This document shows positions 55,953 to 63,719 of a DNA stretch of 64,000 nt, one piece after another (the stretch's first letter is position 1; each line of letters starts with the position of its first letter). This DNA is from Reichenbachiella versicolor (GTDB lineage: Bacteria > Bacteroidota > Bacteroidia > Cytophagales > Cyclobacteriaceae). Below the pieces are notes generated by a model. The model was given only the letters and a program-made list of their open reading frames with translations. It did not search any database and was not told where the DNA came from. Location of the stretch: NCBI RefSeq assembly GCF_003171675.1, contig NZ_QFZQ01000001.1, positions 682,001 to 746,000 on the forward strand, read 5' to 3'. The position numbers and the translations under genes are program-made.

Positions 55953-58339
55953 TGGATCTAAAAAAGGTTCTTAACCATGTACTACCTGTATTACTTTTTA
56001 TAGTTGTACTTTCAGCTTATTTCGCTCCAGTCTTTTTTGAAGGGAAACATCTAAAACAGAATGATGTTTTACAAGGAATTGCAGCAGCACAAGAAACTAG
56101 AGATTATCGTGCAGAATTAGGGGAAGAACCGTTATGGTCTGGGACTATGTTCTCAGGTATGCCAGCATATTTAATAAGTGTTCATTATTCTGGAGACTGG
56201 ATGATGCATCTTAATCACTTCCTTCGTTTTTTACCGAATACAGTAGATGCAATCTTTATTAATTTTCTCTGCTTCTATATTATGTTACTCTGCTTTAGAG
56301 TTAACCCATACCTTGCTTTTGTCGGAGGGTTAGGATATGCTTTCTCTACATTTACTATGGTTACCGCGGAAGCGGGTCATTTGTTTAAAGTTTTAGCAAT
56401 AGGTTATTTACCATTATTGTTTGGAGGAATTAAGCTTGTCTTCACTAATCGAAAAGTTTTAGGAGCAGCTTTAATTGCTGTAGGTACAGGACTTGAATTG
56501 GCAGCGCAACATTATCAAATTACATTCTATGGATACTTGTTGGCGGCGATTATGACCTTGACTTACATGGTAAGAGAGATTAAAAGTGTAAAGCTAGTAG
56601 TTGTTAATGGTGCCATTGTGCTTTTTTCAGTGATTTTAGGAGTAGGTCCAAGTACAGGTAGACTTTGGGGAATACAAGAATATAACCCGTATACTATCAG
56701 AGGAGAAAAAGAATTAACACCACTTCCAGGACAAACTTCTCCTAAGAAAGGACTTGATAAGGACTACGCTTTTGCATGGAGTCAAGGTGTTTGGGAAACG
56801 ATGACTATGGTTATTCCAAATTTATATGGAGGAGCAAGTGGACAAGAACTAGGTAAGAACTCGAATACTTTCAAGAAACTAAAAGCTCAAAATGTTCCAA
56901 GAGGTAGCATTAAACAGTTTTGCAGTAGTGTTCCTACCTATTGGGGACCACAGCCTTTCACCTCTGGACCGGTATATTTCGGTATAACTATTTTAGTTCT
57001 TTTTATTTTAGGCTTATTTACTCTTCCAACTGCTGATAAGCAATGGTTATTAATAGGTACTATATTTTTTACTCTATTGGCCCTAGGAAAGAATTTTGCA
57101 ACCTTTAACTATTTCATATTCGATTATGTGCCGATGTTTAATAAGTTCAGAGCAGTAACCATGACTTTAACCATTACTGCATTTTGTATGCTTTTGATTG
57201 GTTTATTTGGTTTACAGAATTGGTTAGAAAAACCAAAGACTGAACAATTTCAAATATTAAAAAAAGTAGCTTTAGTATCTGCCGGTGTAATTGGCGGTGT
57301 ATGGATTTTTAGCTTAATGTTCTTGTCGTTCAAAGGAGAAAGAGATGCTTCAATGCAATTTCCCTCTTGGTTGATGGATGCGATAGTTGAGGACAGAAAA
57401 GCATTGTTTCATAGAGATTCCTTAAGATCTTTGTTCTTTGCCTTGACAACTCTTGGAAGCTTGTTTTTGTTTTATTTAGGTAAAGTCAAAAAAACAGGCC
57501 TTTTGGGATTGATAGTCTTATTCTCATTGCTTGATCTTTGGTTTATAAATAAAAGGTATCTTAACTCTAATGATTTTGTAAGACAAAAAATTACGGATCA
57601 AATAAGTCCAAGTAAGATTGATTTGCAGATTCAGAATGATAAATCAAATTATAGAGTATTGGATTTGAATAACCCATTTAATAATGGAATTACTTCCGCA
57701 CATCATAAATCAATTGGAGGCTATCATGGTGCTAAGATGCAGAGATATCAAGATTTGATCGAAAGGCATATTTCAAAAAATAATCAGAAAGTGCTAGATA
57801 TTTTGAATTGTAAGTATTTGATTACAAATCAGCCTCAGCAACCATTTATTGAAAGAGAGACTGCGTTAGGAAATGCTTGGTTTGCAAATAATATTATAAG
57901 GGTATCAACTGCTGATGAAGAGATTGCGGAATTAGCCACTTTCGATCAAAAAAATGATGCTGTTGTGGATGTAAGTAAGTTTAAGTTGTCTCGCAACGCA
58001 ATAAGTAATGCCGAGGCATCAATTAAATTAGATTTATATCAGCCAAACTATCTAGTATACTCTACAAATAATGATGATAATGGTTTTGCAGTATTTTCTG
58101 AGATATATTATGCCGAAGGTTGGGATGCATATATTGACGGGGAAAAGGTTCCTTATTTAAGAGCTGATTATATTTTAAGAGGTTTAGAGGTTCCAGCAGG
58201 TAAGCATAAAGTTGAGTTTAAGTTTCAGCCCCAATCTTACTTTATAGGTAACAGAGTTTCTATGGGGGCATCAATATTGGTAGTTTGCTTAGTACTTGGG
58301 GCTGTTTTCGTTGAAGTGAAAAAGCAAAAAGAGGTTTAG
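55952..58339 (+). CDS. YfhO-family membrane protein, 795 aa
   Basis: The protein begins with a membrane helix (VLPVLLFIVVLSAYFAPVFFEGKHL) and has about a dozen hydrophobic segments. YfhO hallmarks include LWSGTMFSGMPAYLISVHYSGDW and the C-terminal soluble part AYIDGEKVPYLRADYILRGLEVPAGKHKVEF. Such proteins are related to GT-C type glycosyltransferases and act on lipid-linked sugars or teichoic-acid decoration in other bacteria. The ATG overlaps the preceding stop codon (TAATG), so it belongs to the same transcript as the nonulosonic-acid genes. Confidence 0.9.
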   Translation: MDLKKVLNHVLPVLLFIVVLSAYFAPVFFEGKHLKQNDVLQGIAAAQETRDYRAELGEEPLWSGTMFSGMPAYLISVHYSGDWMMHLNHFLRFLPNTVDAIFINFLCFYIMLLCFRVNPYLAFVGGLGYAFSTFTMVTAEAGHLFKVLAIGYLPLLFGGIKLVFTNRKVLGAALIAVGTGLELAAQHYQITFYGYLLAAIMTLTYMVREIKSVKLVVVNGAIVLFSVILGVGPSTGRLWGIQEYNPYTIRGEKELTPLPGQTSPKKGLDKDYAFAWSQGVWETMTMVIPNLYGGASGQELGKNSNTFKKLKAQNVPRGSIKQFCSSVPTYWGPQPFTSGPVYFGITILVLFILGLFTLPTADKQWLLIGTIFFTLLALGKNFATFNYFIFDYVPMFNKFRAVTMTLTITAFCMLLIGLFGLQNWLEKPKTEQFQILKKVALVSAGVIGGVWIFSLMFLSFKGERDASMQFPSWLMDAIVEDRKALFHRDSLRSLFFALTTLGSLFLFYLGKVKKTGLLGLIVLFSLLDLWFINKRYLNSNDFVRQKITDQISPSKIDLQIQNDKSNYRVLDLNNPFNNGITSAHHKSIGGYHGAKMQRYQDLIERHISKNNQKVLDILNCKYLITNQPQQPFIERETALGNAWFANNIIRVSTADEEIAELATFDQKNDAVVDVSKFKLSRNAISNAEASIKLDLYQPNYLVYSTNNDDNGFAVFSEIYYAEGWDAYIDGEKVPYLRADYILRGLEVPAGKHKVEFKFQPQSYFIGNRVSMGASILVVCLVLGAVFVEVKKQKEV

Positions 58340-58439: not shown

Positions 58440-59015
58440 TTATTCAAAAGGTGTATAAAGTTCTCCTTTAAGATATTCATTGTATTCATCACAAGTCATT
58501 CTACCAGAGAGTCCGGATACAGGACAAGTTTGATAAATAGCTCCAAATTTTCCAGGGGTAATTAGTACTCCAGTTCCTTGGCACACAGGGCACATTACTA
58601 TAGGGGCGGGGCAATCATAGTATTCTTCTTCTGTTAGTTTTTTTACTGTCTCGTTAAGAATATCATCCTTTTGTTTTTGAAAAGCAATAGTGGAGAGTTC
58701 AAGATATCTAGAAGCTTCATCGAAAAACTTACCAGGTGTACCTTTTAGTTCAACGTATTTTGTTAACCAATTTATTGACTGCTTGTATTTTCCAAGATGG
58801 AATGAGTTTCTTCCGAAATAGTATGCTAGATCACTAGGTAGTTTTTCAAGCAATCCCATTGCCTCTCTAAATAGCTCATCTGCTATTACATACTTGCCAT
58901 CTGCCATAGCATCAGCTCCCTGATCCATTTTCATAAGACCATCACGCTTCATTATTCCTTGTCCCAATCCAATATGAGTAATGAATAAAAAACCAATTAG
59001 GAAAAAGTATTTCAT
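58440..59015 (-). CDS. Exported TPR-like protein with cysteine-rich C-terminus, 191 aa
   Basis: A signal peptide (MKYFFLIGFLFITHIGLGQ) is followed by helical TPR-like repeats (AMADGKYVIADELFREAMGLL, YYFGRNSFHLGKYKQSINWL). The C-terminal 60 residues contain C-P and CxxC/CxGxG-like elements (DCPAPIVMCPVCQGTGVLI, YQTCPVSG, MTCDEY), reminiscent of a DnaJ-type zinc knot. I do not know this combination by name. It stands alone between convergent and divergent neighbours. A binding protein in the periplasm or outer membrane is plausible. Confidence 0.7.
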   Translation of the reverse strand: MKYFFLIGFLFITHIGLGQGIMKRDGLMKMDQGADAMADGKYVIADELFREAMGLLEKLPSDLAYYFGRNSFHLGKYKQSINWLTKYVELKGTPGKFFDEASRYLELSTIAFQKQKDDILNETVKKLTEEEYYDCPAPIVMCPVCQGTGVLITPGKFGAIYQTCPVSGLSGRMTCDEYNEYLKGELYTPFE

Positions 59016-59194: not shown

Positions 59195-59260
59195 ATGAAC
59201 AAAAATAAATCATATTACAACTACTTCTATTACTTCTACTATTCAGTAGAGGCGAGGTAG
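59195..59260 (+). CDS. Tyr/Phe-rich leader peptide, 21 aa, of the aromatic amino-acid operon
   Basis: An ATG at 59195 opens a 21-codon frame ending TAG at 59258-59260. Residues 7-16 (YYNYFYYFYY) contain seven Tyr and two Phe codons; the rest is Lys/Asn-rich and then SVEAR. The chance of such a run directly before the pheA-tyrA genes is tiny, so it is read as a regulatory leader. A possible promoter with TATGTTTTG (59143-59151) lies about 45 bp upstream. Codon-dependent ribosome stalling here when Tyr-tRNA (or Phe-tRNA) is scarce would expose 59249-59257 (GAGGCGAGG), which can pair with CCTCG at 59296-59300 in the terminator arm. Confidence 0.85.
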   Translation: MNKNKSYYNYFYYFYYSVEAR

Positions 59261-59291
59261 TCTATAGGTTCTTGTTCAATAAGAAATTATA

Positions 59292-59322
59292 AAAGCCTCG
59301 ATCAAAAGTCGAGGCTTTTTTT
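59292..59322 (+). terminator. Attenuator terminator between the Tyr/Phe leader and pheA
   Basis: AAAGCCTCGA and TCGAGGCTTT form a 10-bp stem with loop TCAAAAG and seven T. It lies between the leader stop codon and the pheA start, only 15 nt before the ATG, which makes no sense except as a conditional terminator. Its 5' arm is partly complementary to GAGGC/CGAGG in the leader 3' end, an antiterminator candidate. Confidence 0.88.
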
Positions 59323-59337
59323 ATAACAAAATTTTAA

Positions 59338-60171
59338 ATGGAAGTTGGAATTCAAGGCGTATTAGGATCTTTTCATGATCAGGCGGCATCTATCTATTTT
59401 GTTGAAGAGAATGAGATTTGCCTCAAGCCATTCCATGATTTTAGATCATTGGCAAAAGCTGTATCTAGTAAAGAATTGGATTATGGAGTAATGGCTATTG
59501 AAAATACGATTGCAGGTAGTATTTTACCTAACTATGCCTTGATGAATGAATACGATTTGGAAATTTCTGGAGAGGTTTATATTCGAATTCAAATGAATTT
59601 TATCGCACATCCTGGGACTAAAGTAGAAGAGTTGACACATGTTTATTCTCACCCAATGGCTTTATTACAGTGCGCCGATTACTTGTCAAAATATCCAAAC
59701 TTAAAGTTGACGGAATCTGATGACACAGCTGACAGTGTGAGAATGGTCAAGGAAGAGGGGATGATGCATGCAGGGGCGATTGCTAGTAAGAAAGCAGCTG
59801 ATATTTTTGGTATGCAAATGCTGGATGAAGATATCGAGACTAATAAAAAGAATTATACACGTTTTTTGATCTTGAAGAGTCGCATGAATGGGCATGAAGG
59901 AGTTCCATATAAAGCTTCTTTGAGAATTGTAACTAAACATGATCCAGGAGCATTGGCCAATGTGTTAACTGCGTTTAAAGATCACAATATTAACCTGACT
60001 AAAATTCAATCAATGCCAATCATAGGTGAGCCATATAGATATGCTTTCAATATAGATGTGATATGGGAGGATTATGCTGAATATGAGCAAGCAATGAAAG
60101 AAGTAGCAAAAAGCTCAGAAAGCATTAAAGTACATGGAGAATACGAAAAAGGAACAATACCAACGCAATGA
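59338..60171 (+). CDS. pheA: Prephenate dehydratase PheA with ACT domain, 277 aa
   Basis: The catalytic PDT domain spans about 1-180 (GVLGSFHDQAASIYFV, MAIENTIAGSILPNY, and the TRF motif in NYTRFLIL). An ACT domain follows (about 195-265; GALANVLTAFKDHNINLTKIQSMPI). The family converts prephenate to phenylpyruvate. The ACT domain normally senses phenylalanine through GALV and ESRP motifs; here they read GALA and QSMP, so feedback sensitivity may differ. There is no fused chorismate mutase; that activity is in the DAHP synthase fusion downstream. The gene is 15 nt after the attenuator and overlaps the aminotransferase by 4 bp. Confidence 0.94.
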   Translation: MEVGIQGVLGSFHDQAASIYFVEENEICLKPFHDFRSLAKAVSSKELDYGVMAIENTIAGSILPNYALMNEYDLEISGEVYIRIQMNFIAHPGTKVEELTHVYSHPMALLQCADYLSKYPNLKLTESDDTADSVRMVKEEGMMHAGAIASKKAADIFGMQMLDEDIETNKKNYTRFLILKSRMNGHEGVPYKASLRIVTKHDPGALANVLTAFKDHNINLTKIQSMPIIGEPYRYAFNIDVIWEDYAEYEQAMKEVAKSSESIKVHGEYEKGTIPTQ

Positions 60172-61325
60172 TAGAGGTAGCAGATAGAATATCGGAAGTA
60201 AAGGAATACTACTTCTCAAAGAAACTAGATGAAATTAGGGGAATGATTGCTGCTGGTCATGACGTGATCAATTTAGGAATAGGTAGTCCTGATCTTCCTC
60301 CAGCTGAAGAAGTGGCTCAGCAGTTGATTGATAGTGCAAAAGATACTTCCAAGCATGCATATCAATCATATCGATCTATTCCAGAGTTACGTCAGGCAAT
60401 CGCTGATTTTTATATTGGACATTACGAAGTGGAGTTAAATCATGTGACTGAAATTTTACCACTTCTAGGGTCAAAAGAAGGTGTGATGTACATCTCAATG
60501 GCGTTTCTGAACCCAGGAGATACCGTATTAGTACCTAATCCAGGGTATCCAGCCTATAAAACAGCTGCTGAAATGATGGGGGCAAATGTTGTTTTTTATG
60601 ATCTGACTGAAAAAACAGGGTGGTTACCAAATTTTCAAGATATAGATTCAGAAATAATAGAGTCTGCCAAGTTAATGTGGGTGAATTATCCAAATATGCC
60701 AACGGGCAAAAAGGCAGATGAGAAGATTTTTGAAAGTATAGCAGCTTTCGCGAAAGAGAATGAAATTCTTGTTGTCAATGATAACCCATACAGCTTTATT
60801 CTAAATGATAATCCAATCAGTTTATTGTCTGTTGGGGGCAGTAAAGAAAATTGTCTGGAGCTGAATTCTATGAGTAAAGCTTTTAACATGGCTGGCTGGA
60901 GAGTTGGGATGGTGTGTGGTCGTCAAGAATACATAGACGCTATATTGAGAGTAAAATCAAATGTTGATTCAGGAATGTTTAGACCCATTCAAGATGCAGC
61001 TATCAAAGCGTTGCAGCTTCCATATTCTTGGTTTGAAAGTATTAATGCTGAGTATCAAGAAAGAAGGAAATTAGCTGAGCAAATATTGGGTGTTCTAGGA
61101 TGCGGATATGACGAAGAACAATCAGGCATGTTTATGTGGGCTAAGATTCCAGAAGGAAGAAAGAGTGAAGAGTTTGTAGATGAGATTCTTCATGATAAAC
61201 ATGTATTTATTACACCTGGAACTGTTTTTGGGACTAATGGAGAAGGGTATTTGAGGATTTCACTTTGTTCTAAAATAGAGGTTTTTAACGAGGTTATAGG
61301 AAGGTTGACAGCAGTGAACGCATGA
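60168..61325 (+). CDS. Class I/II PLP-dependent aminotransferase (aromatic pathway), 385 aa
   Basis: This fold type I aminotransferase has the expected landmarks: NLGIGSPDLPP, PNPGYPAY, WVNYPNMPTG, and the PLP lysine in NSMSKAFNMAGWRVG (Lys237). Substrate-binding Arg is expected in the C-terminal YLRISLC. It lies between pheA and tyrA with 4-bp overlaps at both ends (ATGA), so it should transaminate phenylpyruvate and 4-hydroxyphenylpyruvate, or prephenate, to complete Phe and Tyr synthesis. Related enzymes also act on aspartate or LL-diaminopimelate, so the substrate is inferred from context. Confidence 0.88.
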   Translation: MIEVADRISEVKEYYFSKKLDEIRGMIAAGHDVINLGIGSPDLPPAEEVAQQLIDSAKDTSKHAYQSYRSIPELRQAIADFYIGHYEVELNHVTEILPLLGSKEGVMYISMAFLNPGDTVLVPNPGYPAYKTAAEMMGANVVFYDLTEKTGWLPNFQDIDSEIIESAKLMWVNYPNMPTGKKADEKIFESIAAFAKENEILVVNDNPYSFILNDNPISLLSVGGSKENCLELNSMSKAFNMAGWRVGMVCGRQEYIDAILRVKSNVDSGMFRPIQDAAIKALQLPYSWFESINAEYQERRKLAEQILGVLGCGYDEEQSGMFMWAKIPEGRKSEEFVDEILHDKHVFITPGTVFGTNGEGYLRISLCSKIEVFNEVIGRLTAVNA

Positions 61326-62197
61326 AAGTTGTAGTTGTTGGATTAGGTCTTATTGGAGGTTCTGCTGCTTTGAAGCTTAGACAGACTGGTTTTGCTACAG
61401 ATTTGGTAGGAGTTGACCGTAACGATAAAAATGCTGATAAGGCCGTTGAGTTAGGACTAGTAGATAATATCTCGGATTTGTCTGTAGTTGCGGAGGCAGA
61501 GTTGGTGTTACTGGCAATCCCAGTCACTAGTATGGAAGCGGTATTACCAAGTATTCTAGATCAAATAGGAGAGCAGACCACAGTGCTTGATTTAGGATCT
61601 ACCAAAGAAAGAATTGCTCTAGCTGTAAAAGGTCATGATAAGAGATCACAATTTGTAGCTGGGCATCCAATAGCAGGTACTGAGAACTCAGGTCCGGAAG
61701 CAGCTTTTGCTGAATTATTTGAAGGTAAAACTGGTATTTTATGTGATGTTGAGGAGAGTTCAAAAAGTGCATTGTCTATATCTAGAGACTGTTTTAATCA
61801 TTTAGGGATGCACTTAATCGAGATGGATAGTAAAGAGCATGATAGGCACATAGCTTATGTATCACATATCTCGCACATAAGTTCATTTGTACTAGGACAG
61901 ACAGTATTGGAAATAGAAAAAGATGAGGCTAGTATCTTCAATATGGCAGGTAGTGGTTTTGAATCTACTGTACGATTAGCGAAGAGTTCTCCAGAGATGT
62001 GGGCTCCTATTTTTAAACAAAATAAAACGCACATTTCTAGTGCTTTAGAAGCGTATATAGATAATTTAGCGCGATTTAAAAAGATGATTGATGCTAGCGA
62101 TGAGGTTGATTTAATCAAAACTATGCGCGAAGCAAATGATATTAGAAGGGTCTTAGACGGTATTAACGGTAAGGCAAAAAATAAACAATTGGTATAA
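61322..62197 (+). CDS. tyrA: Prephenate dehydrogenase TyrA, 291 aa
   Basis: The N-terminal Rossmann motif VVVGLGLIGGSAALKL binds NAD(P). The catalytic His lies in GHPIAGTENSGPEAAF, and the helical half contains EHDRHIAYVSHISHISSF. Length matches monofunctional prephenate (or arogenate) dehydrogenases, with no chorismate mutase or ACT extension. It oxidatively decarboxylates prephenate to 4-hydroxyphenylpyruvate for tyrosine. The presence of tyrA in the operon fits the tyrosine-dominated leader peptide. Confidence 0.94.
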   Translation: MKVVVVGLGLIGGSAALKLRQTGFATDLVGVDRNDKNADKAVELGLVDNISDLSVVAEAELVLLAIPVTSMEAVLPSILDQIGEQTTVLDLGSTKERIALAVKGHDKRSQFVAGHPIAGTENSGPEAAFAELFEGKTGILCDVEESSKSALSISRDCFNHLGMHLIEMDSKEHDRHIAYVSHISHISSFVLGQTVLEIEKDEASIFNMAGSGFESTVRLAKSSPEMWAPIFKQNKTHISSALEAYIDNLARFKKMIDASDEVDLIKTMREANDIRRVLDGINGKAKNKQLV

Positions 62198-62215: not shown

Positions 62216-63310
62216 ATGAAGATTGATTTGAATTTGACTCCAATGGATCAATGGATCGAAGGTGTAAAGTTGCCTTTGATAATTGGTGGTCCATGTAGTG
62301 CGGAGAGTGAAGAGCAGGTTTGTGCAACTGCTAAACTGATAAAAGAGCATACAGATATTCAGATTTTAAGATCTGGAATTTGGAAGCCAAGAACTAGACC
62401 TGGTAGTTTCGAAGGTATCGGAGTAAAAGGCTTACAATGGTTGAACAAGGCTAAAGAAGAAACTGGTCTTTTGACTGCTACAGAAGTAGCTACACCTGAA
62501 CATGTCGAGTTGGCTTTGAAATATGAAATTGACATATTATGGGTTGGAGCTAGAACTACTGTAAACCCTTTTTCTGTTCAGGCAGTTGCTGACGCTTTAA
62601 AAGGCGTTGATGTTCCAGTATTAGTAAAAAATCCTATTAACCCAGATTTAGCACTTTGGATTGGTGCATTGGAAAGAATTAATGGTGCTGGCGTTACTAA
62701 GTTAGGAGGGATTCACAGAGGTTTCTCTGCTGCAACAGGTTCTAAATATAGAAATGATCCTACTTGGAGTATTGCTATCGAGTTGAAAAGATTAATTCCA
62801 GATTTACCAATTGTATGTGATCCATCTCATATTGCAGGTAATAGAGATTTGATTGAGCCTATTACTCAAAAGGCATTTGATCTTCAAATGGAAGGTGTAA
62901 TGATTGAGTCTCACTTGGACCCAGATAATGCTCTTTCTGATGCTAAGCAGCAAATTACTCCTCAAAGACTAGGAGAGATTTTGAATGATGTAGTGATTAG
63001 ACATGGTGAATCTGATAACACTGATTTCGAAATTAAATTGAAAGAATTGAGAAGCGATATCGATAAGATTGATGCTGAGTTGATCGAAACATTGGCTCAA
63101 AGAATGAAGATCGCTGAGAAAATCGCTGAGCACAAGAAGGATAATGAAATCACTATTCTACAGCCAGGTAGATATGATGAAATCATGGAGAATAGAGTTG
63201 CTCAAGGTAAAAAGGTAGATTTGAAGGAGTCTTTTGTGCACGATTTGTATGAATTGATTCATGACAATTCTATCAAAAGACAAACAGCCATAATGAATGG
63301 TGAAGGTTAG
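62216..63310 (+). CDS. Bifunctional DAHP synthase / type II chorismate mutase, 364 aa
   Basis: The first about 260 residues are a type I beta DAHP synthase: IGGPCSAESEEQV, GIWKPRTRPGSFEG, WVGARTTVNPF, KLGGIHRGFS and CDPSHIAGNR. It condenses phosphoenolpyruvate and erythrose 4-phosphate, the first step of the shikimate pathway. From about 278 to 364 comes an AroQ-type chorismate mutase (LRSDIDKIDAELIETLAQRMKIAEKIAEHK), which turns chorismate into prephenate. The fusion of entry and branch-point enzymes in this order is characteristic of Bacteroidota. The gene is 18 bp after tyrA and ends the operon; a strong terminator follows. Confidence 0.95.
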   Translation: MKIDLNLTPMDQWIEGVKLPLIIGGPCSAESEEQVCATAKLIKEHTDIQILRSGIWKPRTRPGSFEGIGVKGLQWLNKAKEETGLLTATEVATPEHVELALKYEIDILWVGARTTVNPFSVQAVADALKGVDVPVLVKNPINPDLALWIGALERINGAGVTKLGGIHRGFSAATGSKYRNDPTWSIAIELKRLIPDLPIVCDPSHIAGNRDLIEPITQKAFDLQMEGVMIESHLDPDNALSDAKQQITPQRLGEILNDVVIRHGESDNTDFEIKLKELRSDIDKIDAELIETLAQRMKIAEKIAEHKKDNEITILQPGRYDEIMENRVAQGKKVDLKESFVHDLYELIHDNSIKRQTAIMNGEG

Positions 63311-63443: not shown

Positions 63444-63719
63444 ATGGCTGTAACAAGATTAAAAAGAAAAGGAAGAAGAAATAAAGTAGTTGCTAAAAGT
63501 AAATTGGCTAACATCCAAAGACTTAGTGCATCTCCAGTGATAAAAAATGTAGATGTAGAGGCAATCAAAGAAGAATTTAAAAAGAATGCTTCTAAAGCTG
63601 CGCCTAAAGCAGAGAAGAAAGAAGTAAAAGAGGAACCAAAGGCTGAGAAAGCTGCTCCAAAAAAGAAAGCCACTCCTAAGGCTAAAAAAGAGGAAGAAGC
63701 CAAAAAAGAAGAAAAATAA
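63444..63719 (+). CDS. Small Lys/Ala/Glu-rich protein, 91 aa
   Basis: The basic start (MAVTRLKRKGRRNKVVAKSK) leads into a conserved-looking core (LSASPVIKNVDVEAIKEEF) and then a Lys/Ala/Pro/Glu-rich tail like a histone H1 C-terminus or other nucleic-acid-binding tail. Similar short proteins occur near gyrB in Cytophagia, from general recollection. The tail is low complexity, so the sequence match is weak evidence. A nucleic-acid or ribosome-associated role is possible. It is followed by a terminator. Confidence 0.7.
   Translation: MAVTRLKRKGRRNKVVAKSKLANIQRLSASPVIKNVDVEAIKEEFKKNASKAAPKAEKKEVKEEPKAEKAAPKKKATPKAKKEEEAKKEEK

Follow-up and report, generated by a model that had tools for sequence, protein, structure and literature searches.

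Why should a short reading frame crowded with codons for tyrosine and phenylalanine, and behind it a terminator-like hairpin, stand directly before the pheA operon of Reichenbachiella versicolor, and which amino acids would it report? We addressed these questions in the window (the whole 64,000-nucleotide stretch of DNA that was analysed) and in related genomes.

The pheA operon and its leader frame

The gene order pheA-aminotransferase-tyrA-DAHP synthase, as read in an earlier note made from the sequence alone, was confirmed by Pfam, with DAHP synthase found to be fused to chorismate mutase. According to the Pfam assignments, the operon covers the synthesis of both Phe and Tyr.

59338..60171, + strand: pheA, prephenate dehydratase, with an ACT-like C-terminal part (Pfam PF00800; PF01842 just under the cut-off)
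60168..61325, + strand: class I/II aminotransferase (Pfam PF00155)
61322..62197, + strand: tyrA, prephenate dehydrogenase (Pfam PF02153, PF20463)
62216..63310, + strand: aroG, DAHP synthase fused to chorismate mutase (Pfam PF00793, PF01817)

On the 3' side of the operon, a small, basic, Lys/Ala-rich frame with no Pfam match was observed (63444-63719). Upstream of pheA, a short frame was present.

59195..59260, + strand: leader peptide frame of 21 codons, MNKNKSYYNYFYYFYYSVEAR, stop TAG (equivalent frame in 8 of the 8 genomes of the genus)
59213..59242, + strand: putative sensing run, 9 aromatic codons in 10 (7 Tyr, 2 Phe)

Frame 59195-59260 reads MNKNKSYYNYFYYFYYSVEAR*, and codons 59213-59242 correspond to Y Y N Y F Y Y F Y Y, exactly the nine aromatic codons in ten that had been claimed for a 21-codon frame. 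In a pattern search of the 5.25-Mb genome, 24 seven-codon Tyr/Phe runs were found versus 14 in the control; among the 20 of these 24 runs that were fetched as 3-kb loci, the pheA leader alone lay in an ATG-to-stop frame. The leader region was more stable than expected (folding z = -5.82), with none of 200 shuffles being equally stable.

Terminator and competing RNA arms in the window

Four arms were distinguished upstream of pheA, the first of them within the sensing run.

59220..59227, + strand: arm 1 of the leader hairpin, predicted to pair with 59254-59261 (minimum-free-energy fold; matched-versus-swapped test on 80 leaders)
59253..59258, + strand: arm 2 (CGAGGT), formed by the last leader codons and the first stop base; predicted to form the antiterminator with arm 3
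59291..59302, + strand: arm 3, the terminator 5' arm, of which 59295-59300 would pair with arm 2 in the antiterminator
59308..59322, + strand: arm 4, the terminator 3' arm and T tract

The terminator has a 12-bp stem (59291-59302 with 59308-59319) and a T run at 59316-59322. The T run ends at 59322 and pheA starts at 59338, in agreement with the intrinsic terminator that had been placed 15 nt before the gene. The nearest upstream gene on the + strand ends at 58339 and an opposite-strand gene (58440-59015) lies in between; this terminator therefore does not belong to a gene further upstream. The earlier note had also singled out GAGGC and CGAGG, at the leader end, as complementary to part of the terminator 5' arm. 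Both indeed are (CGAGG, 59253-59257, to CCTCG, 59296-59300; GAGGC, 59249-59253, to GCCTC), but the predicted fold uses CGAGGT and not GAGGC. The two alternative structures have close predicted energies, with -15.1 kcal/mol for the antiterminator versus -16.7 kcal/mol for the terminator. When a ribosome was placed at the stop codon in the folding model, arm 2 was covered and the terminator was the sole remaining structure. An Rfam search of the window for a T-box, riboswitch or leader family gave no match at the gathering threshold, the sole match being a tRNA.

Occurrence of the leader in related genomes

To survey relatives, PheA was searched in 146 genomes, including that of the window. A match was obtained in 126, and 66 loci were fetched from 65 genomes. 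The relative set consisted of the 65 loci with usable upstream DNA, leaving out L001 (a copy of L002) and L010 (contig end); it takes in seven weak matches (L061-L067), none of which has a leader, and the 61 matched genomes outside it nearly all had weaker scores. The second set, referred to as the named set, comprised the best 80 of 587 GTDB loci by likeness to the window PheA, and is thus no random cross-section of the phylum. It was found with an alignment of 19 PheA proteins, a single-PheA search of genome contigs having given no relatives. The two sets share at least one organism (the upstream DNA of L022 and L085 is identical), and in six pairs of leader loci the likeness is 90% or higher. 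To count as a leader, a frame had to run from ATG to stop over no more than 50 codons, carry 6 or more aromatic codons in 10, and lie no further than 450 nt before pheA.

Such a leader preceded pheA at 26 of the 65 relative loci, as against a mean of 0.8 and a maximum of 3 in ten rounds of dinucleotide shuffling, and at 55 of the 80 named loci (shuffle mean 1.7, maximum 6). Elsewhere in the same loci, the same definition was satisfied by 2 of 558 tiles in the relative set and 33 of 3162 tiles in the named set. One locus with a leader but without a terminator (L068) was removed from the named leader set, which brought it from 55 to 54. The leader was absent from 39 relative and 26 named loci. 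At twelve leaderless loci (L013, L017, L020, L022, L024, L027-L029, L031, L032, L035 and L041), pheA was preceded by what appears to be one and the same membrane protein, whose L022 copy corresponds to DMT_6 (DUF486) by Pfam.

Related genomes had been named in the earlier note as the place to look for the frame and its terminator. The comparison spoke for the attenuation reading: the leader was found in all eight genomes of the genus and at 52 of the 56 named loci with DAHP synthase downstream; in addition, a script detected a terminator, a T-ended hairpin, after 80 of 85 leaders, and the antiterminator arms co-varied. The 54 named leader loci include Cyclobacteriaceae, Flagellimonas, Maribacter, Winogradskyella, Salegentibacter, Lutibacter, Flavobacterium, Sphingobacterium, Mucilaginibacter, Pedobacter, Parabacteroides, Paludibacter and Phaeodactylibacter, as well as one uncultured Chlorobi bacterium and one metagenome-assembled genome (MAG) titled Legionellaceae. 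Bacteroidota-like pheA genes were observed in MAGs titled Legionellaceae (L137, with an aromatic leader) and Bdellovibrio (L090), presumably through either binning errors or transfer.

Presence of the leader was associated with the genes downstream. DAHP synthase was found on the same strand, at most 5 kb downstream of pheA, at 52 of the 54 named loci with a leader versus 4 of the 26 without (p ~1e-13, kinship ignored; 4 of 23 when three short contigs were set aside, p ~3e-12, kinship likewise ignored). Using tblastn, tyrA was found downstream at 29 of the 54 named leader loci and not at the remaining 25; at 22 of the 54, the search recovered pheA and DAHP synthase but neither of the other two operon genes. 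The full Tyr branch is therefore not always in the operon, and the switch appears to be tied less to tyrA than to the opening step of the common pathway.

Tandem aromatic leaders were observed before one pheA at four loci, L040, L047 and L055 (three genomes of one genus that belongs to the same taxonomic order) and L114 (Phaeodactylibacter). Each was followed by a terminator, that of the first L055 leader being recognised by eye only.

Covariation of the arms and folding with a ribosome

Pairing was compared between arms taken from the same locus (matched) and from different loci (swapped). The five leaders without a script terminator were excluded, four of which (the first leader of L055, and those of L099, L119 and L122) show a T-ended hairpin by eye. 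For the 80 others, the arm 2-arm 3 duplex had a mean of -14.46 kcal/mol when matched versus -10.45 kcal/mol when swapped, and -7.28 kcal/mol when arm 2 was shuffled; the matched value was reached in none of 5000 permutations (kinship ignored). Among 37 distinct terminator cores, the values were -13.43 versus -8.86 kcal/mol (0 of 10000 permutations, kinship ignored). The arm 1-arm 2 pairing behaved in the same way, with -17.81 matched versus -12.99 swapped for the 80 leaders (0 of 5000 permutations, kinship ignored). The complementary arm 2/arm 3 pairs themselves differ by genome: CGAGGT/GCCTCG in the window, GGGGTT/AACCCC in L005, CGGGACT/AGTCCCG in L118, GAGACT/AGTCTC in L082, and AGGACTTT/AGAGTCCT, with one G-U, in L138.

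A stalled ribosome was modelled on the middle aromatic codon, with its edge 12 nt past the codon and the RNA present up to arm 3. Under these settings, the expected share of antiterminator (arm 2-arm 3) pairs was above 0.5 in 79 of the 80 leaders (mean 0.95), the exception being L127 (0.47). With no ribosome and arm 3 complete, equilibrium folding gave an antiterminator above 0.5 in 54 of the 80 (mean 0.62), with 0.94 for the window. In the textbook attenuator, an untranslated leader terminates. Since the antiterminator was favoured without a ribosome in these 54 cases, the arm 1-arm 2 hairpin may not be the strong protector of textbook cases, at least in this folding model, and basal read-through is hard to predict. 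It may be that timing decides, or that the arm 1-arm 2 hairpin has another role, such as polymerase pausing.

A conserved frame, a terminator and mutually exclusive pairings that covary between genomes support the layout of ribosome-mediated attenuation that the earlier note had recognised. Judging from the sequences, the region before the pheA operon very probably works by ribosome-mediated transcription attenuation, with charged Tyr-tRNA and Phe-tRNA being sensed jointly. When both Tyr and Phe are plentiful, the ribosome would pass the aromatic codons, reach the stop codon and mask arm 2 (59253-59258); arms 3 and 4 would then pair and transcription would end near 59322, before pheA. When either amino acid is scarce, the ribosome would stall within 59213-59242 and leave arm 2 free to pair with arm 3 (59295-59300) once this is transcribed. 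The terminator would thereby be blocked, and the pheA-aminotransferase-tyrA-aroG operon transcribed.

Amino acids probably sensed by the leader

Within the genus alignment, gaps in the aromatic run were of three or six bases and substitutions mostly replaced one aromatic residue by another, with one Arg found inside the run of L005. From this pattern we infer that the leader is translated. Across genomes, 84 leaders were compared, with a median of 23 residues and 83 distinct peptides. Leader length varied, and Tyr, Phe and Trp interchanged among leaders (324 Tyr, 373 Phe and 23 Trp in total), Tyr and Phe both being present in all 84.

From the seven Tyr to two Phe codons of the window, the earlier note had suggested tyrosine sensing. 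The count was right, and the window leader is the most Tyr-rich of the 84 (7 of its 9 aromatic codons); however, this excess is a trait of Reichenbachiella versicolor and not of the leader family, in which the two residues stand at about 1:1. The suggestion thus holds in part, and joint Tyr/Phe sensing fits better, because both codons occur in every leader at this ratio.

The same attenuator could nevertheless respond to one effective amino acid, either Tyr in this genus or Phe as in Corynebacterium aroR, with the other codons as passengers. We consider this unlikely. The Tyr content of the window leader is in keeping with such a single signal, as are the 25 of 54 named leader loci where tyrA was not found downstream and the Phe-Tyr-Phe leader aroR of C. 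glutamicum, which, according to passages of PMC11802643, responds to Phe and not to Tyr. On the other hand, both residues are found in each of the 84 leaders in similar totals, none is a pure Phe run like E. coli pheL (seven Phe, no Tyr), and the window operon makes both amino acids.

Taking joint sensing further, we find it reasonably probable that the interleaved Tyr and Phe codons constitute a two-amino-acid OR-gate that is ancient in Bacteroidota and tied to DAHP synthase operons, with arms that were rewritten many times yet stayed complementary, and which was doubled in series in some lineages. If so, a single leader can sense two amino acids, and many small leader genes would be marked in these genomes. 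Such a device could also account for the control of Phe and Tyr synthesis in genomes that, as far as is known, lack a TyrR-type regulator.

Other possible roles for the hairpin and the peptide

Instead of acting by intrinsic termination, the hairpin might affect pheA translation, or the access of Rho or an RNase. The window hairpin is indeed close to pheA (15 nt), and a simple consensus scan listed it on the minus strand only, the plus-strand terminator being accepted by a looser hairpin script. In our reading, the scan missed the plus strand because four of the seven T lie within the 12-bp stem. Against this, a T-ended hairpin follows nearly all leaders by the script (80 of 85), and it lay anywhere between 6 and 101 nt from the approximate pheA start (first leaders of tandems excluded), so masking of that start is not the rule. 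A role other than intrinsic termination is accordingly very unlikely.

TnaC is a known case of nascent-peptide arrest, which senses tryptophan. An aromatic peptide that stalls the ribosome in a similar manner, by sensing free Tyr or Phe or some other ligand, would be short and hydrophobic, as the leaders are, and would place the stall at a similar position. We give this little credence: 83 different peptides were found among the 84 leaders, length is variable and the residues Tyr, Phe and Trp are exchanged for one another, which is what codon sensing, and not a specific arrest peptide, would lead one to expect. Finally, seven-codon Tyr/Phe runs are not rare in the genome (24 versus 14 in the control), but chance, in the form of an AT-rich intergenic frame beside an unrelated terminator, is hardly credible given that frame, terminator and complementarity are all conserved relative to shuffled or swapped controls.

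Promoter and translation start

Passages of PMC9723704 give TAnnTTTG as the flavobacterial sigma-A consensus. An exact TAnnTTTG was found at most 70 nt before 24 of 79 leaders, versus 3.9 in mononucleotide shuffles, and started 23-31 nt before the ATG in 17 of these 24. With this enrichment, the leader is probably at the transcript start in many genomes. In the window, no clear TAnnTTTG was found near the leader, the best candidate being TATGTTTT (one mismatch), which starts 52 nt before the ATG. A scan for sigma-70-type promoters gave no more matches than shuffles. A Shine-Dalgarno-like motif was present before 3 of 84 leaders; such sites are rarely used in Bacteroidota. If the proposed attenuator is real, classic attenuation, along with tight coupling of ribosome and RNA polymerase, would be widespread in a phylum where Shine-Dalgarno sites are seldom used, and the leaders would provide an assay for transcription-translation coupling in Bacteroidota.

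Comparison with known attenuators

The arrangement resembles pheL-pheA of E. coli K-12 (NC_000913.3), in which a leader rich in the end product also stands directly before prephenate dehydratase, and for which passages of PMC11802643 describe attenuation by Phe-tRNA. Unlike here, pheL has seven Phe and no Tyr, and precedes a single bifunctional gene, tyrA being encoded on the opposite strand; in the window, Tyr and Phe are interleaved and the operon spans both branches and DAHP synthase. The second likeness is with aroR-aroF of C. glutamicum, where a Phe-Tyr-Phe leader precedes a DAHP synthase operon. It differs in belonging to Actinobacteria, in the three aromatic residues named and in a response to Phe limitation but none to Tyr, as far as the relevant passages of PMC11802643 go. 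Among nine loci searched, the Rfam family Phe_leader (RF01859) stayed below its gathering score (31.5 versus 55 bits for L002); a permissive Rfam search gave sub-threshold Phe_leader and Thr_leader matches over the right stretch, which serve as leads only.

In Bacteroidota, a Bacteroid-trp motif is linked to trp genes. It had no match in the genome of the window, while a positive control matched in Bacteroides ihuae. Rfam lists this motif (RF01692) as a putative cis-regulatory RNA of Bacteroidetes, according to a part of PMC2864571. Candidate leader-peptide attenuators of Flavobacterium psychrophilum belong to the same phylum; the cited portion of PMC9723704 (2021) reports strong hints of attenuation ahead of amino-acid operons in this species and names no operon or leader. 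In a figure of PMC6429828, two candidate uORFs containing F and Y residues are shown close to shikimate genes. The statement that such attenuation is little described in Bacteroidota is thus fair for pheA, but less so for the phylum, in view of the clues in PMC9723704 and of Bacteroid-trp (RF01692, PMC2864571), as far as these excerpts extend. In the literature searched, we came across no account of a mixed Tyr/Phe leader preceding a Bacteroidota pheA operon, and an earlier prediction is possible in older surveys. Two of these, Vitreschak 2004 and Lopatovskaya 2010, reportedly treat attenuation in Bacteroidetes/Chlorobi. The mechanism as such is known; what seems to be new, by sequence comparison, is the mixed specificity, the breadth within the phylum and the tandem copies.

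A candidate histidine leader in the same genome

A frame with a His run, MNNKTLHHHHHPFAQAR, followed by a terminator-like hairpin, was found before hisG and hisD (Pfam HisG, Histidinol_dh) in the genome of the window.

L170 1483-1640 (G000 contig C18, near 417588): His leader locus

This leader and terminator suggest that the organism makes wider use of attenuation. When the His-codon pattern was searched in the eight genomes of the genus (loci for 30 of the 43 matches listed), this was the one convincing leader. Three other short frames with a His run (L177, L191 and L197) were rejected, with no terminator in the following 140 nt examined. The motif TATCTTTG starts 25 nt before the ATG of the L170 His leader, and the tail of this leader, AGGCGAGG, recurs at the end of the pheA leader.
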